35,400 bases of DNA, taken from the NCBI RefSeq assembly GCF_024708915.1, contig NZ_JANJXQ010000110.1, forward strand, positions 1 to 35,400. Reading direction: 5' to 3'. The notes under the pieces are model-generated. The model saw nothing but the letters and a program-made list of their open reading frames with translations, was not told where the DNA came from and ran no database searches. The position numbers were made by a program, and so were the translations under genes. Shown piece by piece: positions 1-16,673 of this stretch. The DNA comes from Thiobacillus sp. (GTDB taxonomy: Bacteria > Pseudomonadota > Gammaproteobacteria > Burkholderiales > Thiobacillaceae). Positions within the stretch are counted from its first letter, which is position 1, and each line of letters opens with the position of its first letter.

Positions 1-873
1 ATCCGCATCATCCAGCAGGTGCAGCCCGACGAAATCTACAACCTCGCCGCGCAGAGCCACGTCGCCGTCAGCTTCGAAGAACCCGAATACACCGCCAACT
101 CCGACGCCCTCGGCGCGCTGCGCATTCTGGAGGCCATCCGCATCCTCGGCCTGGAAAAGAAAACCCGCTTCTACCAGGCCAGCACCTCCGAACTCTTCGG
201 CCTGGTGCAGGAAATCCCCCAGAAGGAAACCACCCCGTTCTATCCGAGAAGCCCTTACGCCGTCGCCAAGCTGTATGCCTACTGGATCACCGTCAACTAC
301 CGCGAGGCCTACGGCATGTATGCCTGCAACGGCATCCTGTTCAACCACGAAAGCCCGATCCGCGGCGAAACCTTCGTCACCCGCAAGATCACCCGCGCGC
401 TGGCGCGCATCAAGCTCGGCCTGCAGGACTGCCTCTTCCTCGGCAACATGGATGCCAAGCGTGACTGGGGTCACGCCAAGGACTACATCGAAATGCAGTG
501 GCTGATGCTGCAGCAGGAGACGCCCGAGGATTTCGTCATCGCCACCGGCGTGCAGTACAGCGTGCGCGACTTCGTCAACGCCGCCGCCAAGGAGCTTGGC
601 ATGGCGATCCGCTGGGAAGGGCAGGGCGTCGACGAGAAGGGTTATGACGCCCACGGCAAATGCATCGTCGCTGTCGACCCCCGCTACTTCCGCCCCACCG
701 AAGTCGAAACCCTGCTCGGCGACCCCAGCAAGGCCAAGAACAAGCTCGGCTGGACGCCGAAGATCAGCTTCGATGAACTCGTCGCCGAAATGGTGCGCGA
801 AGATCTCAAAGCTGCAGAGCGCGACGAACTGGTGAAGAAGCACGGCTACAAGGCCATGGATTACCACGAATGA
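1..873 (+). CDS. gmd: GDP-mannose 4,6-dehydratase, 5' end missing
   Basis: This enzyme converts GDP-D-mannose to GDP-4-keto-6-deoxymannose, the precursor of GDP-rhamnose, GDP-fucose and related sugars, in the cytoplasm. The reading frame is open from base 1 (it reads [20 protein letters not shown]), so the gene starts upstream of the window and the GTG at 19 is internal. Visible family hallmarks are NLAAQSHV, the STSELFG segment with the catalytic Thr/Ser and Glu, the YAVAK Tyr-Lys pair, and [15 protein letters not shown]. One oddity is Ile in a segment ([10 protein letters not shown]) that usually reads HESPRRGETF. The gene is GC-rich like the far end of the operon and overlaps the next gene by ATGA. 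The second enzyme of a GDP-rhamnose or GDP-fucose pathway is not in the window and could lie upstream. Confidence 0.95.
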
Positions 874-1649
874 TGATCAAGCGATTTCTCAGGGGAGCGC
901 TCAAGCGCTTCGGTGTCGTCGCATTTAAGCGCTCAAGCCGCGTGTATATTCCGGAAGAAGAGACATATCGGATTGTTTCCGTGCTTGCCGGGTGTCCTGA
1001 TCCAGTAGTTATTGATGGAGGGACTCATCTCGGCGATATGGTAGAGAGGTTTGGGGCTTTATTACCGAGGTCCGAGTTTCATTGCTTCGAGCCTGACCCC
1101 ATGCTTGGGGAAATACTTGTGCGCAAATTCACGGGTAATTCCAAGATTAATATTGTGCATGCGGCGCTTGGGGACGTTGCGGGCAAAGCAACGTTCAACA
1201 TCAATGTCTCGCGTCCGACCAATTCGCTACTGCCGACTTCTGAATCCTTGCAACCAGACCTCAAACAGCTTTGTGAACTTGTAGAGCAGGTTGAAGTGGA
1301 AGTCGTCACCATTGACGATTATTGCCGGGCGAATTCAATTGATCGCGTAGATATAATCAAACTTGATTTGCAGGGCTATGACTATCTTGCCCTCAAGGGT
1401 GCATCGGGGATGCTCGAGAAGGCCAAGGTTGTGCTGGTGGAGGTATTGTTTAAGGAGTTCTATCAGGGGTGCCATCTCTTTCCTGATGTTCTGGGCTTCA
1501 TGCTTGATAACGGGTTCGAACTGCATACCTTGTGTGGCTTGCACTATGGACATCACGACGAACTGTTGTGGTCAGATGCCATTTTCGTAAAAAATGGCAA
1601 TGGCGCACCATCAGCGAAGCCCCAGCAGGGTGGCGGCCCATCGGTCTGA
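870..1649 (+). CDS. FkbM-family SAM-dependent methyltransferase
   Basis: This is a 259-residue class I methyltransferase of the FkbM type, a family that O-methylates sugar hydroxyls in polysaccharides and natural products. The SAM-binding motif [11 protein letters not shown] lies at residues 46-56, an acidic FEPDP motif II at about 73-77, and the family-typical [18 protein letters not shown] at 161-178. The ATG at 870 overlaps the gmd stop (ATGA), which fixes the start. The gene is clearly more AT-rich than gmd, which suggests that a separately acquired cassette begins here. The acceptor is unknown; a 6-deoxyhexose derived from the gmd product is one possibility (inference). Confidence 0.88.
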
Positions 1650-1661
1650 CCGAACTCGCAC

Positions 1662-3137
1662 ATGCTGTTTAGAAATGCATCCTGGAGCGCGGTTGCTTCG
1701 GCCTATCGTTCTGGGGTAGGCCTTGTGTCTGCATTTCTTGCCGTGCGACTTCTTGGGGCAGAAAACTATGGAAATATTGCTACCCTGATATCCGTATTTG
1801 CGCTCTATCTTTCTCTCATTTCCGGCGTGTTTATTGTGCTGGTCGCCAAATTGATGGCGTCAGATAACACCACCGGAACTTCTGACAAGACCATTTTATT
1901 CGTCGCAGCAAATGTCCTGACGATCCTGTCCGTTGTGGGTATTCTGGGTTTTGCATTGCTGCTGAGTATTTTGGCGCCGGGGTTTCAGGAATCCGGTGCG
2001 ATCAGCCGGGTTTTCTGGGACTACGCGCAATCGGGTTCGTTTTTCCTTGGCATATTGACGGCCTTGCAGATTTATTCAGCGTTGAATTCAGCGATGATTG
2101 AAAGCGCGGGGCGCCTGGATATGGCCATGAAGTCTCAGATGCTAGGGCCAACCGTTGTACTAATTGGGCTGCTTGTTTTGTTTTCAACGCAGAGTCAAGT
2201 TGCTGTCTCGATGTATTTGTTGCTGCTCTGCGCTGGTGCGGCCACAGACATGCTGATGTTATGGGCTACTCGACGGGCGCTGATACTTGAACGTCTTTCG
2301 CTGGATCGCTTACCGCAGGCCATGAAGCGCATCCCCGACTTGCTCAAGTCGGGAAGTGCAATCCAGTTCTCGGCCTTTATGAATATTTTTCTTGAGCCGC
2401 TCAATAAGCTGACTCTCAATCACTTTGCGGGCGGCATGGCTGTCACATCCTATGATCTGGCAATGAAGGTGATTTGGGGACTTCAGGGATTATTCAGTGC
2501 AGTCACGCGAGTGTTTCTTCATCTCGGTAGTCATGGCGCAGATGTCATTGTTCGGTCATATGTGCGTGTAATGACACTCATTGCTGTACCCGCACTCGCA
2601 GCACATGCGCTGGGCGCTTTGTTATTATCATTTGCAATACACCACTGGGTGAGTGTGGAGCAAGACCAGATGATGGCTTTTTTTGGGGTCGCAACGCTTT
2701 CAAATTTGGCCATGATTTACATTACGCCCCTTTACGTGAGCCTGATCGGTAAGGATGACCGCCGCTTCCTGTTCCAGAACCAGTTGCGGCTCACCATCAG
2801 CAATATTGCTGCCTCGCTATTATTGATCCCGATGTTTGGCCTGATTGGGGCAGCTGTCGGGCTTTTTTGTGCTGCTCTTTATAATTCCGCTGCAATTTAC
2901 ATGCGCTTCCAGAAGGTGATCGGCCCCGCAGGAAACATTCGACATGCATTGGCCGGTAGGTTGTGGGGCTTTTTCATGGCGGCCATGCTGCTGATTGCCT
3001 CGCTTTTTCTTGGAGCCACCCATGAGTTGAATATGCTTGCATTCGCTGCCATTGCGGGGGGGCTATTCCTGCTGGTCGCGAAGGAACCGATAACGGAAGA
3101 GTTGAGCCGGAGGCTGACAACTGGAGCAGGTCGATAA
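1662..3137 (+). CDS. Wzx-type polysaccharide flippase (MOP superfamily)
   Basis: This 491-residue, strongly hydrophobic protein has about 12-14 predicted membrane segments and almost no soluble domain, with the N-terminal pattern of Wzx/RfbX exporters (RNASWSAVASAYRSGVGLVS followed by a RLLGAENYG turn). Members flip undecaprenyl-diphosphate-linked repeat units across the inner membrane. It lies 12 bases after the FkbM gene and 3 bases before the sulfotransferase-like gene, in an operon that also encodes a Wzy/WaaL-type protein and a WbpL-type initiating transferase, so the assembly route is probably Wzx/Wzy-dependent. The substrate cannot be read from sequence. The gene is AT-rich relative to the flanks, as is usual for wzx genes. 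Confidence 0.85.
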   Translation: MLFRNASWSAVASAYRSGVGLVSAFLAVRLLGAENYGNIATLISVFALYLSLISGVFIVLVAKLMASDNTTGTSDKTILFVAANVLTILSVVGILGFALLLSILAPGFQESGAISRVFWDYAQSGSFFLGILTALQIYSALNSAMIESAGRLDMAMKSQMLGPTVVLIGLLVLFSTQSQVAVSMYLLLLCAGAATDMLMLWATRRALILERLSLDRLPQAMKRIPDLLKSGSAIQFSAFMNIFLEPLNKLTLNHFAGGMAVTSYDLAMKVIWGLQGLFSAVTRVFLHLGSHGADVIVRSYVRVMTLIAVPALAAHALGALLLSFAIHHWVSVEQDQMMAFFGVATLSNLAMIYITPLYVSLIGKDDRRFLFQNQLRLTISNIAASLLLIPMFGLIGAAVGLFCAALYNSAAIYMRFQKVIGPAGNIRHALAGRLWGFFMAAMLLIASLFLGATHELNMLAFAAIAGGLFLLVAKEPITEELSRRLTTGAGR

Positions 3138-3140
3138 GCT

Positions 3141-4310
3141 TTGAAGACATCCAAACTATATTTGATTTCACCGCGTGAGCCCTGTGGGGCGACTTGGCTT
3201 ATCAATTGCCTCCTGGTACTGGGAATCAAGACCTATCGCACTACCGTTGGTGATGGTATGTGGGTTAAGGAGGGGGGCAGTTGGGCACTGAATCCGATTG
3301 AGGAGCCCCTGAAGAAGTGGCTGCCGGCCTTGAGTGAAGCGCAGCACCTTTCCTTTCGGGACGACGTGGAAGTGGAATGGGCGCATATCTGGCCGACCGG
3401 CAAGACTGCCAAAACCAAGATCATCTACTTCATTCGTGACCCCCGTGATGCACTGTTCTCTCGCTATCGGCGGGAATCGCCAGATGTGACATTCAAAGCA
3501 TTCCTGGATTTTCCAGATGGTCAAACCCAGCTGGACAAAATTGAAACCTGGAACCTGTTTAACGAGTCATGGCTGGCTCAGCCTGATCTCATGGTTTTCA
3601 GATTTGAGGATTACAAACAGGATGCTTTGGCAACTTTGCGCTCGGTGCTGGAATTTTCAGGAATTGTCGTGAGTGAATCGGCGATGCTGGAAGCTGTTGA
3701 ACGGTCGGGTTTCGAGCAGGCTGTCGCCGCGGAGAAGCGCTACCGGGAGATTCACCCAGAAGACACGCAGGTTATTAATCGTGCGAGTCAGGTTGGATCC
3801 TGGAAAGATCCAGTTCTGTCGGTGGAAGCAGCAGAAATTGTCGGGCGGTGCGGTGGCTTGATGGCCCGTTTTGGCTATCTGGCCGCACAGGAGAACGACG
3901 AGAAACCTTCCTACCTTCCGCATTCCAGGCTGCTGCGTTTTTACCGCAACCTGAATGTTCCTGCTGGCTTCTGGGATCGACCGAATGATGGTCGTGAGCA
4001 AGATCGGGTGATGGCTACCGTCACGCTCGCGATGAGAATGGATGCGTCCGAATTGGTTAGGTATCGCCTGCAGACATATGAACGCTGGCAGTTGGTGAGT
4101 GGAATGCAGGAGTTTCTACGTGCATTGGGTGAGTGGACTGGCCGGCAGTTGAGCGAGATTCAGGCTCAATCCAGCGCAGTTCCGAATCTCGCTTGGCGAA
4201 TCAATGAGTTTCTCGCCGTGCGGGGTGTGCGGTTACCCCGTTATTTCAAAGCTTCCATTTGGAAGCTGGCGCGCTTAGGCAAGGTGATTGCGTTCAGGGA
4301 GCCACGATGA
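3141..4310 (+). CDS. Sulfotransferase-fold protein; candidate phosphoramidate transferase
   Basis: This is a 389-residue protein with a TTG start 3 bases after the flippase stop. The N-terminal half shows the two sulfotransferase nucleotide-binding elements. One is a 5'-phosphate loop, SPREPCGATWL (residues 10-20), followed by a hydrophobic helix. The other is the 3'-phosphate-binding motif RDPRDALFS (residues 99-107), with its conserved Arg and Ser. The loop departs from the usual P-K/R-x-G-T-T-W by two extra residues before the Gly and Ala for the first Thr. The C-terminal ~130 residues are not recognised. The gene overlaps the CysC-like kinase gene by ATGA. By family it would be called a PAPS sulfotransferase, but no sulfate adenylyltransferase is present. 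The neighbouring pathway makes 3'-phospho-CDP-amidate, a nucleotide also carrying a 3'-phosphate, so I infer that it may transfer phosphoramidate. Fold confidence is high; substrate is speculative. Confidence 0.75.
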   Translation: MKTSKLYLISPREPCGATWLINCLLVLGIKTYRTTVGDGMWVKEGGSWALNPIEEPLKKWLPALSEAQHLSFRDDVEVEWAHIWPTGKTAKTKIIYFIRDPRDALFSRYRRESPDVTFKAFLDFPDGQTQLDKIETWNLFNESWLAQPDLMVFRFEDYKQDALATLRSVLEFSGIVVSESAMLEAVERSGFEQAVAAEKRYREIHPEDTQVINRASQVGSWKDPVLSVEAAEIVGRCGGLMARFGYLAAQENDEKPSYLPHSRLLRFYRNLNVPAGFWDRPNDGREQDRVMATVTLAMRMDASELVRYRLQTYERWQLVSGMQEFLRALGEWTGRQLSEIQAQSSAVPNLAWRINEFLAVRGVRLPRYFKASIWKLARLGKVIAFREPR

Positions 4311-4831
4311 GCGCAGGGAAAGTAATCTGGATTACGGGTCTTTCCGGAGCTGGCAAATCCACTACCGCCCGCGAAGTGGTCAGGCGATTGCGTGAGCACG
4401 GCAGGCACGTGGTGATGCTCGATGGCGACGAGTTGCGGGAAGTGTTTGGTGCGGTATCGGCCAATACGGAAAATCATGGCCGCGAAGGGCGGCTGGCGCT
4501 GGCGATGCAATATGCTCACCTGTGCCGGGTGATTGCCGCGCAGGGGATGACGGTTGTGATTGCCACCATTTCGCTGTTCAAGGAAATTCATGCTTGGAAC
4601 CGGGCGAATTTGCCCGGCTACTTCGAGGTTTACCTCAAGGTGCCGGTGGACGAGTTGCGCCGCCGGGATCCGAAGGGAATCTATCGTCGCTTCGATGCCG
4701 GCGAGCTCTCCGATGTGGCCGGGCTGGATTTGCCCATCGATGAACCTGAAGCAGCGGACTGGGTGGCGGAGTTTGAGCCGGAGCGAGGCGTTGGAGCTCT
4801 GGCAGATGAATTGATGAAAATTTTAAATTGA
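4307..4831 (+). CDS. CysC-like kinase, probably cytidine diphosphoramidate 3'-kinase (Cj1415 type)
   Basis: This 174-residue P-loop kinase of the APS kinase family has a Walker A motif GLSGAGKST at residues 11-19, DGD at 39-41 and RDPKGIY at 120-126. The two segments that bind APS in true APS kinases are replaced. The expected DR-x-EN-x-RR reads SANTENHGREGR (51-62), and the expected ISPYR loop reads TISLFKE (87-93). In C. jejuni the CysC homologue Cj1415 phosphorylates the 3'-OH of cytidine diphosphoramidate. Finding this gene with homologues of Cj1416, Cj1417 and Cj1418 makes that role more likely than sulfate activation. The ATG at 4307 overlaps the preceding stop; an in-frame upstream start at 4259 would overlap that gene by 52 bases and is rejected. 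Confidence 0.85.
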   Translation: MSAGKVIWITGLSGAGKSTTAREVVRRLREHGRHVVMLDGDELREVFGAVSANTENHGREGRLALAMQYAHLCRVIAAQGMTVVIATISLFKEIHAWNRANLPGYFEVYLKVPVDELRRRDPKGIYRRFDAGELSDVAGLDLPIDEPEAADWVAEFEPERGVGALADELMKILN

Positions 4832-4840
4832 GGAAAAAGT

Positions 4841-5626
4841 ATGAGCCAAACAACGCTGAAGGCGGGAGATTTCACCGGTCTTGCCAAAGATTACTCACAA
4901 CACCGCCCGGATTACTGCCCTTCAGTACTAAACGGCCTGCTGGGGCTATTGAGCAGACCGGTGCAGGAAATCGATTTTGTCGATGTCGGTGCCGGCACGG
5001 GAATCTGGACACGGATGGTGTATGACAAAGGTGCCAAATCCGTTACGGCAATAGAACCTAATGATGATATGCGAGCGAATGGAATTGCCGACAGTGCAAG
5101 TACATCGATTCGCTGGTTGGCAGGCAATGCTGAACAGACAGGCTTGCCTGGTTCATCCTGCGACTGGCTGTCTATGGCCTCCTCGTTTCACTGGGCTAAC
5201 TTCGACGTTTCAACATGTGAATTCCACCGCGTATTGCGTCCCGGTGGTCGCTTTACGGCGCTATGGAATCCACGATTGATTGAGGTGAATCCATTGCTGG
5301 TAGAAATCGAGGCTCACCTGGACACCTTGCGTCCAAATATCAAACGGGTTTCCTCCGGGCGTTCCGGTATTACCGAGACCCTGCTCGAGCAACTATGGGC
5401 CTCCCCTCACTTTGAAGATGTGGTGTATCTGGAAGGTCGTCACATTATTCCCATGACGCCTGAGCGTTATCTGGGTGCGTGGCGCTCAGTCAATGACCTC
5501 CGTGTTCAGCTGGGTCCTGAGAAATTCGACGCTTTCCTGGCGTCTGTAGAACGGCGCATCAGTGAGTTGGATGTGATTGAAGCTACCTATCTAACCCGTG
5601 CTTGGTCTGCCCGGCGCAAGGATTGA
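4841..5626 (+). CDS. Class I SAM methyltransferase, possible phosphoramidate-pathway methyltransferase (Cj1419-like)
   Basis: This is a 261-residue Methyltransf_11/25-type enzyme. The SAM motif DVGAGTGIW is at residues 48-56, an acidic IEPND motif at 71-75, a WLAGNAEQTGLP segment at 92-103, a SFHW motif at 115-118, and VLRPGG at 131-136. The FTGLAKDYSQHRPDY start is typical of small-molecule methyltransferases of this group. It sits between the CDP-amidate kinase and glutamine kinase genes, with 9- and 4-base gaps. In C. jejuni the methyltransferase gene Cj1419 likewise directly precedes the glutamine kinase gene in transcription order, so O-methylation of a phosphoramidate intermediate is a reasonable inference. 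Methylation of a sugar is the alternative. An AGGAAAAAGT stretch just upstream gives a fair ribosome binding site. Confidence 0.8.
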   Translation: MSQTTLKAGDFTGLAKDYSQHRPDYCPSVLNGLLGLLSRPVQEIDFVDVGAGTGIWTRMVYDKGAKSVTAIEPNDDMRANGIADSASTSIRWLAGNAEQTGLPGSSCDWLSMASSFHWANFDVSTCEFHRVLRPGGRFTALWNPRLIEVNPLLVEIEAHLDTLRPNIKRVSSGRSGITETLLEQLWASPHFEDVVYLEGRHIIPMTPERYLGAWRSVNDLRVQLGPEKFDAFLASVERRISELDVIEATYLTRAWSARRKD

Positions 5627-5630
5627 GTCA

Positions 5631-7946
5631 ATGACCCTGGCGTTTTCCACCAAGGCCGGCACCCTGGCGCTACTGCAAGAGCCACTGCGGTCGGCCCGCA
5701 TCGCCCCCCTGGTGTCCTTCACGGTGGCTGCGTGGCAGGCCGACCCTGCCGGTTGTCTGGCTCGGATTCGCCCGGTGATCGGGAACGGTCCATGGATCGT
5801 GCGTTCCAGCTGCCAACGCGAAGACGGCGCTGGCGAATCCAACGCTGGGGCTTTTCTGTCGCTGACGGATGTTGCGGCCGAGGGCCTGGAAAATGCCATT
5901 GAGCAGGTGATTGCAGCCTACGGTGAAGCTGATGAAAATGACGAGGTGCTCATCCAGCCGATGCTGCAGAGCGTGTTGCGATCTGGCGTCGCCTTCTCCC
6001 ACGACCCCAATACCTGCACGCCTTACCGAGTGGTGAGTTGGTCGGAAGGGAGGGATACCTCCGTCGTGACGGGCGGCAAGGGCGGTCGGACTTGGCAACA
6101 GGCAGCCTGCTCGCCAATCGCCCCCCCCGTCGAATTGGCCTGTGTGGTTGCCTTGATAGATGAATTGCTTGTGCTGTTTGGTGGCGTGCCGGTGGACTGT
6201 GAGTTTGCCGTCACCTGCGAGGGCCAGGCTGAAGTGTTGTGGCTGTTGCAGGCCCGCCCGCTGGTCTTGACCGGGCCCTTGGAAGATGAAACGTCGCAGT
6301 CGGTGCGGTTGCAGCGCATTCACGACAAGGTGGCGCGAGGCATGCAGCCCCACCCCTTCCTGATGGGTCGCCGTACGGTCTATGGCGTAATGCCGGACTG
6401 GAACCCCGCCGAGATCATAGGCGTGCGGCCAAAACCACTGGCTTTGTCGCTTTACCGTGAGTTGGTGACTGATGCCATCTGGGCCTATCAGCGCCACAAC
6501 TACGGCTACCGCAATCTGCGCAGCTTTCCGCTGATGCCGCATTTTTTCGGACTGCCGTACATTGATGTGCGCTTGTCCTTCAATTCCTTCATCCCTGCCG
6601 ATCTGGATGATGGGCTGGCAGGCAGGCTGGTGGATCATTACATCGACCGCCTTCTGTCTGAACCCACGCTGCACGACAAGGTGGAGTTTGAAGTTGTCTT
6701 TTCATGCTACACCCTGGATTTGCCGCAGCGGCTGGAACGTTTGGCGGAAGCGGGCTTCTCGAAAGACGAGCGCGAGGCAATTGCCGACAGCCTGCGGCGC
6801 CTGACCAACCGCATCGTGCATCCCAAGGACGGCTTGTGGCGCGAAGATGCTGCCAAGCTGAGTACACTCAATGCACGGCGGGAGGAGCTTTTGGCCTCCA
6901 GCGCTGATCCACTGGAGCGGATTTACTGGTTGCTGGAAGACGCCAAGCGCTATGGGACGCTGCCTTTTGCCGGTTTGGCGCGTGCAGGGTTTGTAGCAGT
7001 GCAAATGCTCAAGTCATTGGTGGCAGTGGGTGTTTTCTCTGATGCGGATTACGACGCCTTCATGGGTGGTGTCTCCACCGTTAGTGGACAACTCGCAAGG
7101 GACAGGGCAACACTGGACAAGGCCACCTTCCTGTCTCGCTACGGCCATTTGCGCCCGGGTACTTATGACATTCTTTCGCCGCGTTACGACGAGGCGCCCG
7201 AACTCTATTTCGACTGGAGCCAGCGGCCACCGGCACCGGAGACGGTGAAGCCTTTTTCCCTGACGCTGCCGCAGATGCGCGAAGTGGTGAAGCTGCTCGA
7301 ATCGCACGGCCTGCAACCTGATCCGGTGGGGCTTTTCGATTTTTTGCAGGCGGGGATCGAATTGCGGGAGTCGGCGAAATTTCATTTCACCCGCAACCTG
7401 TCGGATGTGCTGGCACTGGTGGCGGAGTGTGGCGCGCAGTGGGGCTTCTCCAGGGAAGATTTGGCTTATTGCGACATTGCCGCCTTCAAGGAACTTCACG
7501 TGGCAGCGGCAGACCCAAAGGAGGCGCTCTCGCGCAGCATCGAACAAGGCATGGCGCGCTACCGGGACACTCTGGCCGTTGTGTTGCCACCACTCATCGC
7601 GCGCCCGGAGGACGTTTGGGTTTTTGAGTGGCCTGAGACCACGCCCAATTTCATTACCCAGAAACAGGTCACCGCACCCGTGACGGGGTGTGAGGAGCGT
7701 GAGCGGCTAGCCGGGGCGATTGTATGTATCCCGAACGCTGACCCAGGCTTTGACTGGTTGTTTGCCTATCCGATCGCGGGGCTGATTACTGTCTGGGGTG
7801 GTGCAAATTCTCACATGGCTATTCGTGCCGGAGAGTTGGGCTTGCCGGCGGTCATTGGGGCAGGAGAGGTTCTGTATCGACGTTGGTCAACTTCCCAAAG
7901 ATTACATCTTGACTGCGCCGGGCGCCGAGTAGAGGTGTTGGCGTGA
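5631..7946 (+). CDS. L-glutamine kinase (Cj1418 type), PEP synthase-like architecture
   Basis: This 771-residue enzyme would phosphorylate the side-chain amide of L-glutamine, the first committed step to phosphoramidates. Its N-terminal domain is the PPDK/PEP synthase ATP-grasp: IVRSSCQRED (56-65), NAGAF (71-75), SGVAFSHD (118-125), DCEFAV (189-194) and the closing LLQARP (205-210). The C-terminal swivelling phosphohistidine domain carries GGANSHMAIRAGELGLPAVIG, with the catalytic His at about 728. The PEP/pyruvate TIM barrel of real PEP synthase is missing, and a long central domain of about 450 residues lies between instead, which fits glutamine kinase. The ATG at 5631 follows the previous stop by 4 bases; the in-frame GTG at 5598 overlaps it and is less likely. 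The stop overlaps the hydrolase start (GTGA). The Cj1418-Cj1417-Cj1416 order is kept here. Confidence 0.88.
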   Translation: MTLAFSTKAGTLALLQEPLRSARIAPLVSFTVAAWQADPAGCLARIRPVIGNGPWIVRSSCQREDGAGESNAGAFLSLTDVAAEGLENAIEQVIAAYGEADENDEVLIQPMLQSVLRSGVAFSHDPNTCTPYRVVSWSEGRDTSVVTGGKGGRTWQQAACSPIAPPVELACVVALIDELLVLFGGVPVDCEFAVTCEGQAEVLWLLQARPLVLTGPLEDETSQSVRLQRIHDKVARGMQPHPFLMGRRTVYGVMPDWNPAEIIGVRPKPLALSLYRELVTDAIWAYQRHNYGYRNLRSFPLMPHFFGLPYIDVRLSFNSFIPADLDDGLAGRLVDHYIDRLLSEPTLHDKVEFEVVFSCYTLDLPQRLERLAEAGFSKDEREAIADSLRRLTNRIVHPKDGLWREDAAKLSTLNARREELLASSADPLERIYWLLEDAKRYGTLPFAGLARAGFVAVQMLKSLVAVGVFSDADYDAFMGGVSTVSGQLARDRATLDKATFLSRYGHLRPGTYDILSPRYDEAPELYFDWSQRPPAPETVKPFSLTLPQMREVVKLLESHGLQPDPVGLFDFLQAGIELRESAKFHFTRNLSDVLALVAECGAQWGFSREDLAYCDIAAFKELHVAAADPKEALSRSIEQGMARYRDTLAVVLPPLIARPEDVWVFEWPETTPNFITQKQVTAPVTGCEERERLAGAIVCIPNADPGFDWLFAYPIAGLITVWGGANSHMAIRAGELGLPAVIGAGEVLYRRWSTSQRLHLDCAGRRVEVLA

Positions 7947-8596
7947 GCGGGGCCGTCATTGTGGCGGTCAGCCAGCGGGTAGATATTGTTGCAGGGCGGG
8001 ATGAGCAGCGTGACGCATTGGATCAGCGGCTTATCGCTTTCCTGCTGCAGTCCGATGCCGTGCCCATCCCCGTGCCGAATGGCCTGTTCATGGAAACGTC
8101 GGCTGGACAGGAAAATCATCAGATCTTTGATGCCTGGCTTGGCCAGGTGAAACCTCATGCTGTGGTGTTATCAGGCGGCAATGATATTGGCGAGTGCCGT
8201 GATCGTGATCTGACCGAGGCTGCGTTGCTGGACTATGCGCAGAAACATGGTTTGCCCGTTTTGGGTATTTGCCGCGGGATGCAGATGATGGGGGTTTGGG
8301 CCGGCGGTCATTTGGCTAAGGTGGACGGGCATGTACGGAGCCATCATCGTTTGCAGATTTCTGATCAAACAGCGGCGTGGCCCCTAGAAGTGAATAGCTA
8401 TCACAACTGGTCTCTGACCGAATGTCCTGAGGGATTTGTGGTTGAGGCTCGCAGCGAGGACGGAGCAATCGAGGCTATTCGCCACGCGCACTTGCCATGG
8501 GAAGGCTGGATGTGGCACCCGGAAAGGGAGCCTGTCTTCTCTGCAGCAGATGTCGGACGTGTCAGAAAATTATTCCAGATGCGGGAGACGCGATGA
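7943..8596 (+). CDS. Gamma-glutamyl-CDP-amidate hydrolase (Cj1417 type), class I amidotransferase fold
   Basis: This 217-residue member of the peptidase C26/class I glutamine amidotransferase family has its nucleophile Cys110 in the elbow GICRGMQMM. The catalytic His192 and Glu194 lie in WMWHPERE, and an oxyanion-loop segment VVLSGGNDIG precedes them. The C. jejuni counterpart cleaves CDP-L-glutamine to cytidine diphosphoramidate and L-glutamate. A gamma-glutamyl-GABA hydrolase (PuuD) would be the automatic call, but no putrescine genes are near. The gene is translationally coupled on both sides: GTG 7943 overlaps the kinase stop, and its TGA overlaps the cytidylyltransferase ATG. It is somewhat shorter than PuuD-type enzymes, in keeping with Cj1417. 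Confidence 0.87.
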   Translation: MSGAVIVAVSQRVDIVAGRDEQRDALDQRLIAFLLQSDAVPIPVPNGLFMETSAGQENHQIFDAWLGQVKPHAVVLSGGNDIGECRDRDLTEAALLDYAQKHGLPVLGICRGMQMMGVWAGGHLAKVDGHVRSHHRLQISDQTAAWPLEVNSYHNWSLTECPEGFVVEARSEDGAIEAIRHAHLPWEGWMWHPEREPVFSAADVGRVRKLFQMRETR

Positions 8597-9312
8597 GGGC
8601 CATTATCCTTGCTGCAGGGCGCGGCAGTCGTATGAAAAACCTGACTGATGAACGTCCTAAGTGTCTGGTGGAACTGCGAGGCAGCCCCTTACTTGACTGG
8701 CAAATCAGGGCACTGCAAGCGGCTGGTGTTGCCGATATTGCTATCGTCACCGGCTACAGGCGTGAATTGCTGGCTGACCGTGGGTTTGTCGAATTCCATA
8801 ATCCACGATGGTCAGAAACGAACATGGTGTCTTCGCTGGCCTGTGCCGCCGCATGGCTGGAAAGTGGCCCATGCATTGTGAGTTATTCCGATATTTTTTA
8901 TGACGCCAGCGCTGTAGCCGCCTTAATTAAATCTTCGGCCCCGCTTGCTGTCACTTACGACCCCCACTGGCAGGAATTGTGGGAGAGTCGTTTCGGCGAT
9001 CCTCTCCTGGATGCGGAAACATTTCGTATAAATGCGGATGGGACGCTCGCCGAAATTGGCAACAAGCCCCAAACTGTTGATGAAGTGGAAGGCCAGTACA
9101 TGGGATTGTTGCGCTTTACGCCAGACGGATGGGGCGAGGTGCTGCGCATTCGTGCCGGGCTAACTCAAGACGAACGCGACAAGATGCATATGACTGGCAC
9201 GCTGCAAAAGATTATTGAAGCCGGGCGGTTGCCCATCGCAGCGCTGCCGTACACAGGGAAATGGGGCGAGGTGGATAGCCAGTCTGATCTGGAGCATTAC
9301 ACGAGTGCCTGA
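8593..9312 (+). CDS. CTP:phosphoglutamine cytidylyltransferase (Cj1416 type)
   Basis: This is a 239-residue single-domain nucleotidyltransferase. The nucleotide loop LAAGRGSRM is at residues 6-14 and PKCL at 22-25. A WSETNMVSSL segment at about 73-82 resembles LicC-type phosphocholine cytidylyltransferases. A metal-binding Asp lies in SYSD (D100), and the C-terminal WGEVDSQSDL supplies a second metal-ligand Asp (D228). In the C. jejuni pathway this family member joins CTP and phosphoglutamine to give CDP-L-glutamine and pyrophosphate. The choline or sugar alternatives are less likely given the adjacent hydrolase and glutamine kinase genes. The ATG at 8593 overlaps the hydrolase stop (ATGA); an in-frame start at 8497 lies deep in the previous gene and is rejected. 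Confidence 0.87.
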   Translation: MRAIILAAGRGSRMKNLTDERPKCLVELRGSPLLDWQIRALQAAGVADIAIVTGYRRELLADRGFVEFHNPRWSETNMVSSLACAAAWLESGPCIVSYSDIFYDASAVAALIKSSAPLAVTYDPHWQELWESRFGDPLLDAETFRINADGTLAEIGNKPQTVDEVEGQYMGLLRFTPDGWGEVLRIRAGLTQDERDKMHMTGTLQKIIEAGRLPIAALPYTGKWGEVDSQSDLEHYTSA

Positions 9313-10261
9313 TGTCCTTGCCACCGGTGTGGCCGGCACAGTCAGGTGTCCCAGTTGTGCTTCCTGGAATACGCATTCGCTTGGCGCGATTCCTCCGAGC
9401 AATACCTTTGCTGGACGTTTGCTAAAGCAAAAGCTTCCAGGAGGGTTCTTATGGCAGTGCTCTAACTGTCATTTACTCTTCCGCCACCCTAGACAGAGTG
9501 AGGCTGAACTCAACCGGCTTTACCAGTCAGGTGATGCGGAAAGCTGGCCAACTCCGGTGGAGCAGCGAACCGACTGGCGATTGATCCGAGAGTGGCTCAA
9601 AATAAAAAGAGAAGTTAAGCGGGTTATGGACGTAGGTTGTTTCGATGGCCGGCTGCTTGAATATCTTGGTGTTGATTACACATGGATCGGTGTGGAGATT
9701 CATGAGGAGGCAGCAAGGCGTGCACGTGCCCGAGGCGTGGATGTGCTGAGCAGCGACTTCGCCAAACTCTCCGAATTGAATATCGATGTGGACGTCGCGT
9801 TGGCAATCGATGTTATCGAACACAGTTTTGATCCCAAAATTTTTTTGGCTTCATTGGCCGCTTGTGTTCGCCCTGGAGGATATGTCCTGGTAACTACTGG
9901 CAACACCGCGGCGCCAAGCTGGCGCCTGATGAGAGGCCTTTACTGGTACTGCCATATTGCCGAGCACCTGTCTTTCATCAATCCAACTTGGGCTGAGAAT
10001 GTCGCACCACAGCTTGGGTTGGAGGTCCAATACATGCGCTTGTTCTCACACGCCGAAGGCAGGGCCTCTATTAAACAACGGGTTTACGAAACTACCGCCA
10101 ATTTGATTCTCCGATTCGCACCGAAGGTGTTTGCTCTGCTGCGGCGGTTCGGCGCGGGGGGGATTGATCTTGATCGTTATCCGGGCTTGGAACTTTCGCC
10201 TACCTATTGGATGAGTGCAAAGGATCACATGCTGGTGGTGTTTCGGAAAACCGATACGTGA
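9305..10261 (+). CDS. SAM methyltransferase with N-terminal zinc ribbon
   Basis: This 318-residue protein starts at GTG 9305, ten bases after GGAG (9291-9294) and overlapping the preceding stop by 8 bases. Cys15-x-x-Cys18 and Cys52-x-x-Cys55 form a probable zinc ribbon. A class I methyltransferase domain follows: RVMDVGCFDG at 106-115, then LAIDVIEHSFDP and VRPGGYVLVTTGN. The TGA overlaps the ATG of the next gene by one base. It is the second methyltransferase bracketing the phosphoramidate genes, as C. jejuni has two (Cj1419, Cj1420) next to its pathway. Whether it methylates the phosphoramidate or a sugar is not decidable from sequence; zinc-ribbon methyltransferases of this layout also act on nucleotide sugars. 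Confidence 0.8.
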   Translation: MPDVLATGVAGTVRCPSCASWNTHSLGAIPPSNTFAGRLLKQKLPGGFLWQCSNCHLLFRHPRQSEAELNRLYQSGDAESWPTPVEQRTDWRLIREWLKIKREVKRVMDVGCFDGRLLEYLGVDYTWIGVEIHEEAARRARARGVDVLSSDFAKLSELNIDVDVALAIDVIEHSFDPKIFLASLAACVRPGGYVLVTTGNTAAPSWRLMRGLYWYCHIAEHLSFINPTWAENVAPQLGLEVQYMRLFSHAEGRASIKQRVYETTANLILRFAPKVFALLRRFGAGGIDLDRYPGLELSPTYWMSAKDHMLVVFRKTDT

Positions 10262-11583
10262 TGAAGCTTACCCCTATTCTTTATTCACCAGCCTATCCGG
10301 CGGCATGGCTGCTTTTTGGCATGCCCTTCGCGCTGGCTATAGCGCATTTTGTGGCAATCCCATGGCCGCAGTTAGCGACCATCGCCGTCTATACAGTAGC
10401 GTTGGTGTGGGTGTCGGTATTGGCATGGCGGGGACAGCGGCATCTTTGGCCTGTCACCACGCTTGACGGGCTGTTTGTTGGTTTTGTTTCGCTGGTGTCT
10501 GTCTCGCTGGTATCCCAAGGTGGAATTTGGGGGGAGATGGGAAAGTTCGCACGTTACCTGCCTTTCATGGTGGTCGTTCCCTATCTCTGCGGACGATTGA
10601 TGCGAGTGTCGGATATTGTTCTCTTTATGCGCATTACCCTCGTTGCAGGCATAACCCTCCTGCCGCTCTTGTTGAGTGATCGCCTAACGTCGGCGGGGCG
10701 ACCGTTCGGGCGTTGGCCATTTTTTGGGCAAGATCATGGCGCGTTATTGGCAGGCGTTCTGCTGACAGCCGCATTGATCGCACTTTGCGTGCGCATGCTT
10801 GATTTCCGAAGCCTGGGCGAAAGAACGAACCGGTCTAGCCAAGTGTTCCTTAATGGCCTAGCCGGCCTGTTCACAGTCTTCCTGGTCTGGGTAACGGCAA
10901 GGGGCTGGCTGCTTTCTGCTTTGGTTGGGGTTGCAGTGACCTGCCTATTTGCACGGCAGCGTTCAATCTGGAGGCGGGTTGGGCTATGGACTGCAATAGT
11001 GGCTGTTGTGGGGCTGTCGTTGTCGGTGCTGCCTAAACTTGATCCCTATTTTGGGCGCTTTTATGCATTGCCCATGAATATGGATTCGCATATGGAATCT
11101 ATCGAACCTTTCCTTGGTGTGACTGTACCCATCCTTGGTGAGGCGAGTTGTCAGCCATTCAAGGACGGGGTCAATTCCATAGCCATGCGCTGGGTGCTGT
11201 ACCAGGAGGCGATGGCGATGTTCTCGGAAAATCCCGTCTTTGGCGTTGGCGCGGCAAGATTTGGCGAACAGTCCTGCACGGGGCCGATGGGGTTTCCCCA
11301 CAGCACGATTCTTCAGGGGGGCGCGGAATTGGGCCTGATTGGCGGCGGATTGCTGGTCGGGCTAATGATGCTTGCGGCTGTTACGCTGGCGCGGCCGTTT
11401 CTGTCAGTCTGGCAGGGGCCGAACTGGTCGGCGCATGCGTTTGTCCTGGCGCTGTTTGCGGCTTTCCAATTGGGAGACCAGATCTACGGCAATTACTTCA
11501 TGTCGGTGGGCACATGGCTGCTGCTGGGAATTGCCGCGAGCATGCGTGCCGTTGACAATCGGGGGCACGTAAATCGTGGCTGA
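10261..11583 (+). CDS. O-antigen ligase/polymerase (Wzy/WaaL-type membrane protein)
   Basis: This 440-residue membrane protein has about 11-12 hydrophobic segments. A large periplasmic loop between about residues 260 and 355 includes FSENPVFGVGAARFG and FPHSTILQGGAELGLIGG, the Wzy_C/O-antigen ligase signature with its functional His. Such proteins polymerise repeat units or join chains to lipid A-core at the periplasmic face of the inner membrane. With a Wzx-type flippase in the same operon I favour the polymerase role, but ligase cannot be excluded. The start ATG overlaps the previous TGA by one base (TGATG), and the end overlaps the next gene by 8 bases. Confidence 0.85.
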   Translation: MKLTPILYSPAYPAAWLLFGMPFALAIAHFVAIPWPQLATIAVYTVALVWVSVLAWRGQRHLWPVTTLDGLFVGFVSLVSVSLVSQGGIWGEMGKFARYLPFMVVVPYLCGRLMRVSDIVLFMRITLVAGITLLPLLLSDRLTSAGRPFGRWPFFGQDHGALLAGVLLTAALIALCVRMLDFRSLGERTNRSSQVFLNGLAGLFTVFLVWVTARGWLLSALVGVAVTCLFARQRSIWRRVGLWTAIVAVVGLSLSVLPKLDPYFGRFYALPMNMDSHMESIEPFLGVTVPILGEASCQPFKDGVNSIAMRWVLYQEAMAMFSENPVFGVGAARFGEQSCTGPMGFPHSTILQGGAELGLIGGGLLVGLMMLAAVTLARPFLSVWQGPNWSAHAFVLALFAAFQLGDQIYGNYFMSVGTWLLLGIAASMRAVDNRGHVNRG

Positions 11584-12385
11584 TTTTCCGCGCATTACCG
11601 TTGTTACGCCCAGTTTCAATCAGGCGGCCTATCTCGAGCGCACCATTTGCTCGGTGCTCGATCAGGGCTACCCCAACCTTGAATACATCATTGTCGACGG
11701 TGGCTCAACGGATGGAAGCGTAGACATCATCCGCCGCTATGCAGACCGCTTGTCCTGGTGGGTGAGTGAACCCGATCGCGGGCAGACGGACGCCCTCAAC
11801 AAGGGACTGCGACGGGCGACCGGCGAATGGGTAGCGTGGCAGAACTCGGACGACATCTACTATCCGGGCGCTTTCCATGATCTGAGCGCGGCTGCCGCAA
11901 AACATCCGTGGGCGGGCCTTGTCATCGGCGACATGATGCTGATTGACGAGCATGATCATCCGCTGCGCGATATTCGCTATGTGAAGCCCAGTTACAGGGC
12001 GCTCCTGGCGGAAGGCATGCTGCTTGCGAACCAGGCGGCATTCTGGCGTCGCAGTCTTCAGGAGAAGACAGGGTTACTGGACGAGAGGTATCACTGTTCG
12101 TTTGACTACGAATGGTTTCTTCGACTGGCGCAGCATGCCGAAGGGATACACGTAGATTGCATCTGGGGCGCACTCCGCCTGCATGGCGAAACCAAGACCA
12201 GCCTGATGGAGCATCTCTTTCAGGAAGAGAATCAGATGATCCTGGCAGGACGCGAAATACCCTCATGGCAAAAGAAAGTATACAAACTGCGTCGCCTTGC
12301 CTTGATGCTCGGCCAAGGACAGGTTGCTTATGTTCTTAGAGGACTGTCGCGTCATGCGCGTGGGCAGGGCGGAGCGATGTACTGA
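11576..12385 (+). CDS. Glycosyltransferase family 2
   Basis: This 269-residue GT-A fold glycosyltransferase is cytoplasmic and probably adds one sugar of the repeat unit to the lipid-linked intermediate. The N-terminal strand ITVVTPSFNQAAYLERTI, the IIVDGGSTDGS nucleotide-binding segment, SEPDRGQTDALNKGL and the metal-binding QNSDD (about residue 90) are standard GT2 features. The GTG at 11576 overlaps the end of the membrane protein gene, and the TGA overlaps the asnB ATG by one base. Donor and acceptor are unknown. It resembles the GT2 gene at 15910 in its N-terminal half, and the two may be ancient paralogues. Confidence 0.9.
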   Translation: MADFPRITVVTPSFNQAAYLERTICSVLDQGYPNLEYIIVDGGSTDGSVDIIRRYADRLSWWVSEPDRGQTDALNKGLRRATGEWVAWQNSDDIYYPGAFHDLSAAAAKHPWAGLVIGDMMLIDEHDHPLRDIRYVKPSYRALLAEGMLLANQAAFWRRSLQEKTGLLDERYHCSFDYEWFLRLAQHAEGIHVDCIWGALRLHGETKTSLMEHLFQEENQMILAGREIPSWQKKVYKLRRLALMLGQGQVAYVLRGLSRHARGQGGAMY

Positions 12386-14256
12386 TGTGCGGTATTCTCG
12401 GATGGTTCGGCCGCCACGAGGCGGTGGATGCTGGACGCTTCAGCGCCGCGCTGGATCTGCTCGCACACCGCGGCCCGGATGACCGTGGTGAATTTGCTGC
12501 GCCGGGTGTTTTGCTCGGTCATCGGCGCCTGTCCATCCTCGACCTATCTCCTGCCGGTCACCAGCCAATGGTGGAACCGGTAAGCGGTGCGGCAATTGTT
12601 TTCAACGGGGAGGTATACAACCACGTCGAATTGCGTGCCGAACTCGAAGGGCTTGGTCATCAGTTTTTCGGGCATTCAGACACCGAGGTGCTGCTGCATG
12701 CGCTGATCGAGTGGGGAGACCGGGCGCTGCCACGCCTCAACGGCATGTGGGCGTTCGCGTTCTGGCAACCCTCGAAGCAGCATTTGTTGCTGGCGCGTGA
12801 CCGGTTCGGGGTGAAACCGCTGTATTTCCGGAATGGCCACGATGGTCTGGCTTTCGCGTCCGAGCCCAAGGCGCTGCTGGCTTTGTTTCCTGGGCACCGG
12901 GCTGTGTCGGAAACGGCGCTATTGGATTTCCTGGGCAACAATCTGCTTTACGCCCGCGGCAATTCTTTCTACCAAGGTATCGATGTGATGCCGCCAGCGC
13001 ATTATGCGACCTATGAGGCCGCCACCGGCAAGCTGCGTCTGTCGCGTTACTGGGATTACCCGGCGAATACGGATGAGGCGCTCAGCGCCGATGGTGCGCG
13101 TGCTCAATTTGACGCGCTGTTTACCGACGCGGTGAGGGTGAGGCTGCGCAGCGATGTTCCGGTGGGCCTGACACTCTCCGGCGGTCTTGATTCGACCGGG
13201 GTGCTTGCCGCAGCCAGCCAGCATGTCGCCAAGCCTTTGGTCTGCTATACGTCCGTCTATGGCGAAGGCGAGTCGGGCGAACTGCCATGGGCGCAGCTCG
13301 CCAGCGATGCGGCGCATTCGCCGCTGACCGCGGTGTCCGCGCCGCAAGAGGATTGGCTTGATACCTTGCGCAAGGTGGCATGGCACATGGATGGGCCGGG
13401 CTACTCCCCTGCAGTCTATCCGCTCTGGCATCTCATGCAGCATGCACGTTCCGATGGGGTGCCGGTGCTCCTTGAGGGGCAGGGAGCTGACGAGGCTCTG
13501 GCCGGCTATCCACAATATGCGATTCTGGAACTGCTGAACTATTTTTCAGGGAAGTCGGACCAGCGGCGGAGCCTGGAAGGCGTGCGGGAGCGGTTGCGCG
13601 CCTTGCGCCACAGCTTCTCGCTGCGCTGGGCGCTGGCATGGTCGGCGCGTGAGGTCTCGCCCATGCTGTTGCGCTGGCATCGTCGGCGCGTAGGTTTCCA
13701 GTCGCTGATGCGTGACGGGGTTCAGTTGCCGCCGCTACTCGAACATCACGGGGGAATGGGTGCTGATCCGGTCCGACAAAGGCTGATGGAGGATCATTCG
13801 CTTACCATTCTGCCCGGGCTTTTGCACTATGGCGATGCCATCAGCATGGCGCATGGTGTGGAGGCACGAAATCCGTTCCTGGACTACCGGCTTGTCGAGT
13901 GGATGTTCAGCTTGCCTGCCAAACTAAGATTCAATCGGAATGAAACCAAATGGGTGCTGCGCGAGTATTTGCGTGCGCACGGCCAGCGATCGATAGGCAA
14001 TCGACCTGACAAAAAAGGTTATCCAACCCCGGTGGGGAAATGGCTGGCCTCTGAGCAGGGACGGGAAGTCGAACGATTGCTGCTTGACCGGCATAGCCTG
14101 CTCCACCAGTGGTGTGATCCGGGCAGGATCAAGCGCTTGATCGAACAGAACAGGAAAGGGGTAATGGCGGCGGAGCATCACGTCTACAAGCTCGTGACGA
14201 CGCAGCTTTGGTTGCGTGAATGCATTCAGGCTGGACAGCCGCTGTCTAGGGTCTGA
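12385..14256 (+). CDS. asnB: Asparagine synthetase-type glutamine-dependent amidotransferase
   Basis: This 623-residue two-domain enzyme has a class II glutaminase domain with nucleophile Cys2 (MCGILGWFG) and the RLSILD and FNGEVYN substrate-binding segments. The synthetase domain has the PP-loop SGGLDS at 265-270 and later GQGADEALAGYP. AsnB makes asparagine from aspartate, but AsnB homologues inside polysaccharide loci (for example WbpS in Pseudomonas O-antigen loci) are thought to amidate uronic acids. Its place between two glycosyltransferase genes supports a surface-sugar role. No UDP-sugar 6-dehydrogenase is in the window to supply a uronic acid, so the acceptor stays open. It starts with a one-base overlap and is followed after 4 bases by the next gene. 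Confidence 0.9.
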   Translation: MCGILGWFGRHEAVDAGRFSAALDLLAHRGPDDRGEFAAPGVLLGHRRLSILDLSPAGHQPMVEPVSGAAIVFNGEVYNHVELRAELEGLGHQFFGHSDTEVLLHALIEWGDRALPRLNGMWAFAFWQPSKQHLLLARDRFGVKPLYFRNGHDGLAFASEPKALLALFPGHRAVSETALLDFLGNNLLYARGNSFYQGIDVMPPAHYATYEAATGKLRLSRYWDYPANTDEALSADGARAQFDALFTDAVRVRLRSDVPVGLTLSGGLDSTGVLAAASQHVAKPLVCYTSVYGEGESGELPWAQLASDAAHSPLTAVSAPQEDWLDTLRKVAWHMDGPGYSPAVYPLWHLMQHARSDGVPVLLEGQGADEALAGYPQYAILELLNYFSGKSDQRRSLEGVRERLRALRHSFSLRWALAWSAREVSPMLLRWHRRRVGFQSLMRDGVQLPPLLEHHGGMGADPVRQRLMEDHSLTILPGLLHYGDAISMAHGVEARNPFLDYRLVEWMFSLPAKLRFNRNETKWVLREYLRAHGQRSIGNRPDKKGYPTPVGKWLASEQGREVERLLLDRHSLLHQWCDPGRIKRLIEQNRKGVMAAEHHVYKLVTTQLWLRECIQAGQPLSRV

Positions 14257-14260
14257 GGTT

Positions 14261-15193
14261 ATGGAACATACACAAAACTGCGCGCCGCTCGCGCTCTTTG
14301 TCTACAACCGTCCAGAACATACGCGCAAGACGGTCGAGGCGCTGCAGGCCAACCTGCTTGCGCCGCACACACCGCTGTTCGTGTTCTGCGATGCGGCGTG
14401 CGACGAGCTTGCGCGCGAGGGTGTGGAGCGTGTGCGTGATTATGTTGCGCGGATCAGCGGCTTTGCGTCGGTGACCATCATCAGCAGGGAGCGGAATCTT
14501 GGCCTGGCCAATTCGATCATCGATGGCGTCAGCATGTTGTGCGAGCGGTTTGGGCGTGCCATCGTCCTGGAGGACGATCTGCCGACATCGCCGCACTTTT
14601 TGACCTTCATGAATGATGGGCTTGACACCTATGCTTCGGATGAGCGCGTGCAGAGTGTCTGCGGCTACATGTATCCGGTCGGGCTTGATACCGATGCGCC
14701 ATCCTTCTTCCTCAGCATGCCGCACAGCTGGGGCTGGGCGACATGGTCGGACCGCTGGCGCATATTCGAGCGCGACGGACAGGCGCTGCTTGAGCAGATT
14801 CGGTCACGCGGGCTGCGGCGTGCTTTCAATGCGAACGGTCCGCACTCCAACATCAAGATGCTCAAGGATCAGATCGCAGGCCGCAACCATTCATGGTTCA
14901 TCCGCTGGCACGCGGCGGGCTTCCTTAGACATATGCTGACGCTGTATTCTGCCCACTCGCTGGTTCGCAATATCGGCATCGACGGCAGTGGCGTGCATTG
15001 CGCGGAATGGAAGATCGATCCTTACTGGGGCGAGGTGGCCGTCGAATCGATTCGCGTCGATCGAACGCCAATCATCGAACATGCCGCCAATCTGGCGCGG
15101 CTCAACAAATATTTTGTCCGGATCAGGGGTGCGCGATATATTAATTTTTTCCTTCGCAAGCTGGCACAGTTCCGGCGCAAGTTTGCGACTTGA
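14261..15193 (+). CDS. GT-A type glycosyltransferase (HlpA/sugar-transferase group)
   Basis: This 310-residue protein begins [21 protein letters not shown], then FVFCDAA, and carries the acidic metal motif [13 protein letters not shown] and a [11 protein letters not shown] motif. These are typical of a GNT-I-like group of bacterial sugar transferases that are sometimes mislabelled as hemolysin-related. It probably adds one residue of the repeat unit in the cytoplasm. The ATG at 14261 follows a GAGG ribosome-binding sequence and lies 4 bases after the asnB stop; the longer in-frame extension to 14216 overlaps asnB and is rejected. The stop overlaps the next start codon. Confidence 0.85.
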
Positions 15194-15891: not shown

Positions 15892-15909
15892 CCGCCTGTC
15901 GGTCGCCTC

Positions 15910-16671: not shown

Positions 16672-16673
16672 CA

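Follow-up and report, generated by a model that had tools for sequence, protein, structure and literature searches.

A predicted phosphoramidate cassette in an O-antigen-type locus of Thiobacillus sp. and its relatives in other bacterial phyla

The window analyzed here, a 35,400-nucleotide stretch of Thiobacillus sp. DNA (contig NZ_JANJXQ010000110.1, positions 1 to 35,400), contains a tight, same-strand run of genes (1662-9312) that encode, in this order, a flippase-like protein, a sulfotransferase-fold protein, a CysC-like kinase, a methyltransferase, a glutamine kinase family protein, a hydrolase and a cytidylyltransferase. We interpret this run as a cassette that belongs to an O-antigen-type locus and probably serves to produce an activated phosphoramidate and to couple it to a glycan; for the synthesis of the phosphoramidate donor as such, the assignment appears highly probable. 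The same four enzyme types (glutamine kinase, cytidylyltransferase, hydrolase and CysC-like kinase) make up the O-methyl phosphoramidate (MeOPN) capsule pathway of Campylobacter jejuni (Cj1415-Cj1418, with the transferases Cj1421/Cj1422), which is likewise encoded in a surface-glycan locus. A preliminary description of this DNA had placed the four enzyme genes side by side, and all four are indeed open, intact and oriented in the same direction; its interpretation of them as a cytidine diphosphoramidate (CDP-amidate) pathway is upheld overall, the ordinary identities PpsA, CysC and PuuD having been examined with family models and a tree.

The reactions in this organism are predicted from gene content and order, protein families, conserved residues, predicted fold and co-occurrence. 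The glutamine kinase would phosphorylate glutamine at its amide nitrogen, the cytidylyltransferase would join the resulting phosphoglutamine to CMP, and the hydrolase would remove glutamate, leaving CDP-amidate (the last two reactions are presumed to be those of the C. jejuni pathway). The CysC-like kinase would add a 3'-phosphate, yielding a donor that resembles 3'-phosphoadenosine 5'-phosphosulfate (PAPS) but carries cytidine and phosphoramidate; the methyltransferase would methylate the phosphoramidate, and the sulfotransferase-fold protein, in which the 3'-phosphate-binding motif is kept, would transfer it to the hydroxyl group of a sugar. A bisphosphate nucleotidase, part of the cassette in some related loci and here presumably encoded elsewhere in the genome, would recycle the spent 3'-phospho-CMP. 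For C. jejuni, the glutamine kinase step and the 3'-phospho-CDP-amidate intermediate are described in the accessible part of PMC6429109, and transfer is assigned genetically to Cj1421/Cj1422 in that of PMC3907429.

Protein families of the four enzymes

The glutamine kinase family protein (5631-7946, forward strand; ATG at 5631, stop at 7946, with an alternative upstream GTG start possible at 5598) scores 983.9 bits with NF004508/PRK05849 (cut-off 501), compared to 42.8 bits with the best phosphoenolpyruvate (PEP) synthase model and 28.4 bits with PEP_synth (cut-off 739.75). It shares the ATP-binding and phosphohistidine domains with PEP synthase and pyruvate phosphate dikinase, and these are the only domains detected by Pfam, which did not find the PEP/pyruvate-binding barrel of those enzymes. 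The histidine H728 in the motif GGANSHMAIR is nearly invariant across 81 rows, and a relative with 83% identity carries the JGI name 'glutamine kinase'. PEP synthase was accordingly rejected as the identity of this protein, and its placement in the glutamine kinase family, as previously proposed, stands. A protein search scored 7996 candidates, and 6772 of them matched at E 0.001, perhaps including other PEP-utilizing enzymes; the best 120 are all at least 81% identical to the query and mostly nameless, with no Campylobacter-named protein among them. The closest named relatives of both the kinase and the CysC-like protein come from several Betaproteobacteria and also from other bacteria.

The CysC-like kinase (4307-4831, forward strand; ATG at 4307, stop at 4831), the predicted CDP-amidate 3'-kinase, scores 214.6 bits with NF004041 (cut-off 127) and only 97.4 bits with the APS (adenosine 5'-phosphosulfate) kinase model TIGR00455 apsK (cut-off 138.7); in 10 of 10 module-carrying genomes, the sole NF004041 match over the cut-off is found at the kinase locus. 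A tree built from 106 rows, for which the bootstrap had not settled, contains a branch, supported at 100/97, that has 78 of the 81 module-linked CysC-like rows on one side (the module rows L076, L134 and L039_6095 are on the other side, and the non-module row L143 groups with the module rows). The ordinary APS kinases form a 24-row clade on the non-module side, with a branch length of 2.86, and the window protein lies outside this clade. The CysC-like rows keep the P-loop and the DGD motif, and DGDNVR, GF, ENIRR and FTG, which we take to be the APS-contacting motifs of APS kinase, are replaced (five module and two other rows were dropped from this residue comparison, and L039_6095, an ordinary CysC in a module locus, was moved across). 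Judged from these substitutions, the CysC-like kinase has an altered substrate pocket and is distinct from APS kinase; the earlier view that it is not a true CysC is borne out, and identity as an ordinary APS kinase was rejected.

These data bear directly on ordinary glycan sulfation, under which the CysC-like protein would be an APS kinase making PAPS, the sulfotransferase-fold protein would sulfate the glycan, and the kinase-hydrolase-cytidylyltransferase trio would be a separate matter. The CysC-like protein does match Pfam APS_kinase (4.8e-29), and its neighbor combines a sulfotransferase fold with the PAPS-type 3'-phosphate motif; the separation of the CysC-like rows and their substituted pocket argue the other way and, together with the evidence on genome co-occurrence and the nucleotidase given below, lead us to regard sulfation as improbable.

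For the class-I amidotransferase-fold hydrolase (7943-8596, forward strand, GTG start), the top hit among 18,950 NCBIfam models is NF045546, gamma-glutamyl-CDP-amidate hydrolase (GCDPHdlase), at 95.1 bits, well short of the cut-off of 250; GMP synthase comes second at 61.5 bits and the PuuD model reaches 38.7. The previous assignment as gamma-glutamyl-CDP-amidate hydrolase is thus favored over PuuD, with the reservation that the equivalog cut-off is missed. Residues C110, H192 and E194 are nearly invariant (76 rows). The nucleotidyltransferase (8593-9312, forward strand, ATG start; NTP_transf_3, E 4.6e-20) is the predicted CTP:phosphoglutamine cytidylyltransferase, and its closest solved sequence is CTP:phosphocholine cytidylyltransferase 1jyk (E 6.9e-11). 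None of the four enzymes scores as its ordinary namesake, in agreement with the earlier warning that each gene taken alone is easily misnamed.

Conservation, spread and genome co-occurrence of the cassette

The cassette was compared across 81 loci, namely the window and the best 80 of 196 confirmed kinase relatives from a species-genome scan, many of them metagenome-assembled genomes (MAGs). These 80 public loci represent the closer relatives because they are the best of the 196 and were required to hold YGVMPDW or IWAYQRHN. Loci were picked by the glutamine kinase only, and homologs of the other genes were counted with phmmer (E 1e-5): the CysC-like gene is present in 72 loci, the methyltransferase in 73, the hydrolase in 76 and the cytidylyltransferase in 75. 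In 70 of the 81 loci, the CysC-like kinase, the hydrolase and the cytidylyltransferase are all encoded within about 10 kb of the glutamine kinase, and this clustering exceeds chance. All five cassette genes (CysC-like kinase, methyltransferase, glutamine kinase, hydrolase and cytidylyltransferase, counted at 60 bits or more) are found in 67/81 loci, or 62/68 once the 13 loci close to a contig end are excluded, and in 56/81 they follow a single order and strand. Complete sets occur in five phyla, Pseudomonadota, Nitrospirota, Verrucomicrobiota, Bacteroidota and Cyanobacteriota (Prochlorococcus); the single Balneolota locus lacks the methyltransferase. The genomic context varies from O-antigen-type genes in the window to flagellin genes adjoining the kinase (Pseudomonas loci L071-L073) and a ComM-like gene upstream (eight other Pseudomonas loci). 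Phyla are mixed in the kinase tree, a pattern suggestive of transfer.

In a sample of 398 Pseudomonadota genomes, 15 encode a kinase over the NF004508 cut-off. NF004041 matches of at least 146 bits occur in 10 of these 15 and in none of the 383 kinase-negative genomes, where the best match is 137 bits (Fisher p 1.2e-16; the marker threshold, placed between 137 and 146 bits, was chosen post hoc, with the data already seen), an association that argues further against sulfation. In the 10 genomes with both genes, the two lie within about 4 kb of each other in six cases and about 20 kb apart in one; in the remaining three, they are on different contigs, so that the link between the kinase and the CysC-like gene extends beyond mere neighborhood.

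Kinase relatives were found in 96 plasmid records, 14 of them with at least 80% of the query covered; none was found among viral contigs, and the phage search yielded a single faecal contig, unverified and bacterial in appearance. This 9.5-kb contig (MT837632.1, labeled phage, human faeces) encodes a 1011-residue protein (652-3687) in which kinase-like and hydrolase-like domains are fused, and no cytidylyltransferase- or CysC-like open reading frame (ORF) is among its nine listed ORFs. The fusion protein has 1319 protein matches; nearly all of the best 120 are about 1000 residues long, and most of these are nameless, with no Campylobacter-named protein among them. Among the matches listed, the few with names are Lachnospiraceae, Clostridia, Eubacteriales or Butyrivibrio. 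Such a fusion might release free phosphoramidate or some other product. Pseudomonas sp. CFII64 has two kinase loci on one contig (L011 and L053), one of them complete and the other with only the upstream gene, the methyltransferase and the kinase.

Exchange of the methyltransferase

The window methyltransferase (4841-5626, forward strand; S-adenosylmethionine-dependent, Methyltransf_11, E 1.9e-13), for which methylation of the phosphoramidate is predicted, occupies a slot that usually lies between the CysC-like gene and the kinase and is filled by two subfamilies. Subfamily A, 50-100% identical to the window protein, is present in 21 loci, and subfamily B, about 28-40% identical to it, in 53; full genes of both are found only in L003. 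The two subfamilies replace one another. Pseudomonas loci L071 and L072 align over 22 kb at 92.4% and 89.8% identity with a sole gap of 0.86/0.94 kb, which is the methyltransferase gene, of subfamily B in one locus and A in the other. A similar swap distinguishes L005 and L007 (81-84% identity), where the replaced stretch of L007 measures 1.9 kb and includes a further ORF. On a kinase tree of 69 typed rows, built by a quick method with SH-aLRT support only, well-supported branches carry at least 8 changes of methyltransferase type and parsimony gives 14, compared to 17.6 on average after shuffling, so that clustering by type is only weak (L003, with both types, was uncounted, and L009 was counted as B even though its slot remnant is nearer to A). 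In L009 (Rhodobacteraceae SB2), the slot (9711-9992) holds a short methyltransferase remnant with both ends preserved, and two methyltransferases of subfamily B are encoded at distances of about 4 and 8 kb. HvrF, a phosphonate-cluster protein that is the closest solved relative of the window methyltransferase, was not used as a clue to function; the accessible part of PMC7858074 likens it to trans-aconitate methyltransferase.

Action of the methyltransferase on the phosphoramidate seems fairly likely: a homolog is present in 73/81 loci in very different settings, including next to flagellin genes and in the eight Pseudomonas loci with the ComM-like gene, a pattern that fits a target at the level of the donor better than one particular sugar. 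Conceivably, although with considerably less probability, the cassette yields phosphoramidate that lacks the methyl group, or a different phosphorus-nitrogen compound, and a sugar is the substrate of the methyltransferase; the passages available from PMC3907429 cite phosphoramidate without a methyl group for Xanthomonas and Shewanella, and those from PMC9561416 state that the C. jejuni group occurs both methylated and unmethylated.

Candidate transferases and a CysQ-like nucleotidase

The protein encoded at 3141-4310 (forward strand) has a sulfotransferase superfamily fold and a 3'-phosphate-binding motif according to Pfam and the predicted structure; we assume that this motif indeed serves 3'-phosphate binding. 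The loop of the window protein is PREPCGATW, and that of the family consensus PREPSGATW, to be compared with PKSGTTW, which we take to be the canonical sulfotransferase loop. Sulfotransferase families account for at least 11 of 55 genes directly upstream of the cassette and for no more than 2 of 110 distal genes (p ~1e-4), where the upstream set included short ORFs and the controls were ORFs of at least 250 residues, randomly drawn from 521. These 55 were the scanned genes out of 59; long proteins in L026, L028, L046 and L052 were excluded, the one in L026 being a sulfotransferase-tetratricopeptide repeat (TPR) protein. By this enrichment, the sulfotransferase-fold genes become candidate transferases, and we put the chance that the window protein, with a 3'-phosphonucleotide donor, is the phosphoramidate transferase at about even.

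In a competing scheme, the donor is made as proposed but another gene, for example one of the glycosyltransferase B (GT-B) fold, encodes the transferase, and the sulfotransferase-fold protein of the window performs PAPS sulfation with PAPS made elsewhere. One upstream protein family is indeed common to 17 loci, 16 of them in Pseudomonas, and a modeled member has a GT-B fold with Foldseek matches that include a CMP-bound capsule polymerase, TagF and TarL; furthermore, Glyphos_transf proteins are upstream in 4/55 loci. However, GT-B is a very common fold, and UDP-N-acetylglucosamine 2-epimerases, that is, UDP-sugar enzymes, lead the VIA-align list for the Pseudomonas protein, which is why we name it 'GT-B fold' only. 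In the window itself, Pfam detected no Glyphos_transf among 19 proteins from 19 to 20390, and the sulfotransferase gene overlaps the start codon of the CysC-like gene. We consider this scheme a clearly less probable one.

An inositol-monophosphatase-family gene is inserted between the hydrolase and the cytidylyltransferase in 13/81 loci (L001, L002, L003, where it is split, L030, L031, L036, L037, L038, L065, L068, L069, L070 and L077); the homolog search found no such gene in the window. The best NCBIfam model was TIGR01331 CysQ, 3'(2'),5'-bisphosphate nucleotidase, in 8/8 proteins scanned (196-234 bits), with the cut-off of 228.8 passed in L001 and L065 only, and the closest solved sequence to the L036 protein is CysQ 3b8b. 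Transfer from 3'-phospho-CDP-amidate would leave 3'-phospho-CMP, just as sulfation leaves 3'-phosphoadenosine 5'-phosphate (PAP), so a CysQ-like enzyme within the cassette fits. PAP recycling under the sulfation alternative would also account for the gene; its location inside the trio speaks against that alternative, as does the finding that in 7 of 50 kinase-locus genomes neither CysD (at 1e-20) nor Sat (at 1e-10) was found, among 13 without CysD (50 of 80 loci, chosen by us, with most Pseudomonas and several short contigs excluded).

Several observations weigh against the phosphoramidate reading. The likeness to Cj1415-Cj1418 is one of family models and gene order, none of the searches having reached a Campylobacter sequence, and besides the low score of the hydrolase, no NCBIfam equivalog model exceeds its cut-off for the cytidylyltransferase. 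The module label on the CysC tree requires three changes rather than one. The NF004041 cut-off is unspecific, being passed by Bacillus subtilis and 7 kinase-negative genomes (126.7-137 bits), and was dropped as a marker for this reason; kinase-positive genomes G012, G164, G344 and G367 have no NF004041 match at 1e-33, and in G395, the match that adjoins the kinase reaches 124 bits. The Magnetococcales loci L026 and L046 possess the kinase, with the other four genes absent within 10 kb. The sulfotransferase family of the window is present in only 9/81 loci, most Pseudomonas loci holding the GT-B protein in its place, and the window protein could use PAPS. The nucleotidase supports a 3'-phosphorylated donor and leaves the base unsettled because CysQ also clears PAP, and the absence of ATP sulfurylase is weak evidence because the 7 genomes are, by their titles, MAGs or a single-cell assembly and perhaps incomplete. 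As a separate observation, L026 and L046 share a protein family directly upstream of the kinase, a sulfotransferase-TPR protein by Pfam in L026.

Gene neighborhood in the window

Overlaps of 4 bases join the kinase to the hydrolase (GTGA), the hydrolase to the cytidylyltransferase and the sulfotransferase-fold gene to the start of the CysC-like gene, which makes translational coupling of the kinase, hydrolase and cytidylyltransferase plausible. The gene order and coupling reported before are thus seen again, in a run that additionally holds the methyltransferase and the sulfotransferase-fold protein, both previously missed. Promoter-like sites are not above shuffles (4 vs 5.2), and terminator-like sites are slightly above (18 vs 12.4, standard deviation 4.0).

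The flippase-like (Wzx-like) protein (1662-3137, forward strand) is named from its position and hydrophobic sequence; it has no family match in the NCBIfam or Pfam scans, and Nitrospira loci L016 and L018 carry a homolog at the equivalent position. Left of the run are genes for a GDP-mannose-dehydratase-like protein and an FkbM methyltransferase. To the right, on the forward strand, follow a Methyltransf_23 protein (9275-10261, Pfam), which has phmmer matches in 4 loci including the window and is not part of the conserved cassette, a Wzy/O-antigen ligase family membrane protein (10261-11583; Wzy_C, E 1.3e-14) and the remaining glycan locus (11576-20393). By Pfam, the latter encodes two glycosyltransferase family 2 proteins, an asparagine-synthase-like protein (12385-14256), which possibly makes a sugar amide, a hexapeptide protein, an epimerase, Glycos_transf_4 and Polysacc_synt_2 proteins and one protein without a hit. 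Type IV pilus genes lie farther right.

Relation to known systems and implications

The order of the kinase, hydrolase and cytidylyltransferase equals, as we take it from the gene numbers, Cj1418-Cj1417-Cj1416. The CysC-like gene is first in the window cassette and last in the C. jejuni MeOPN locus, and, unlike in C. jejuni, a single methyltransferase sits between the CysC-like gene and the kinase (Cj1419/Cj1420 are presumably the C. jejuni methyltransferases). The window system further differs in its sulfotransferase-fold candidate transferase and its O-antigen-type locus. With the PAPS system (CysC, PAPS sulfotransferases and CysQ), it shares the folds, the P-loop, the 3'-phosphate logic and, in 13 loci, the CysQ-like nucleotidase; it departs from that system in the changed CysC pocket, the separate grouping of the CysC-like proteins and a gene set built on a cytidylyltransferase and a glutamine kinase.

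The preliminary description predicted a phosphoramidate-decorated glycan outside Campylobacter; the genes support this prediction, which is not new in chemical terms. The accessible part of PMC3907429 cites unmethylated phosphoramidate in lipopolysaccharides of Xanthomonas campestris and Shewanella, and that of PMC8042644 reports a phosphoramide group in X. campestris; these passages concern chemistry and give no gene names. From what is accessible of the recent literature, PMC11924219 counts seven HS:1 genes for synthesis and transfer of the group, and PMC12409886 presents oligosaccharides intended to enable elucidation of phosphoramidate decoration. Among titles and abstract openings, with few subscription journals covered, we found neither a description of the cassette outside Campylobacter nor a paper that joins MeOPN and sulfotransferase.

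The pathway itself is known; what appears to be new is how widely it occurs, the exchange between methyltransferases, the CysQ-like gene and the candidates for the transferase. A family termed 'C. jejuni-specific glutamine kinase' in the available text of a 2022 review (PMC9561416) exceeds its curated cut-off in 15 of 398 Pseudomonadota genomes and belongs to a conserved cassette in five phyla, where the neighboring genes are testable candidates for methylation, transfer and spent-nucleotide recycling. Tentatively, one may envisage a mobile cassette of at least five phyla that decorates O-antigens and flagellin glycans, in which non-equivalent methyltransferases switch the form of the tag (for example, O-methyl vs N-methyl, or unlike sites), diverse proteins, either of the sulfotransferase fold with a 3'-phosphonucleotide donor or of the GT-B fold with a CDP-type one, act as transferases and the CysQ-like enzyme recycles 3'-phospho-CMP. 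If true, the sulfotransferase fold would gain a new class of donor, and the PAPS cycle would have a counterpart built on cytidine. Phage F336 reportedly recognizes the Campylobacter phosphoramidate, to judge from a title in a reference list, and an exchangeable tag could therefore bear on phage resistance and surface variation.

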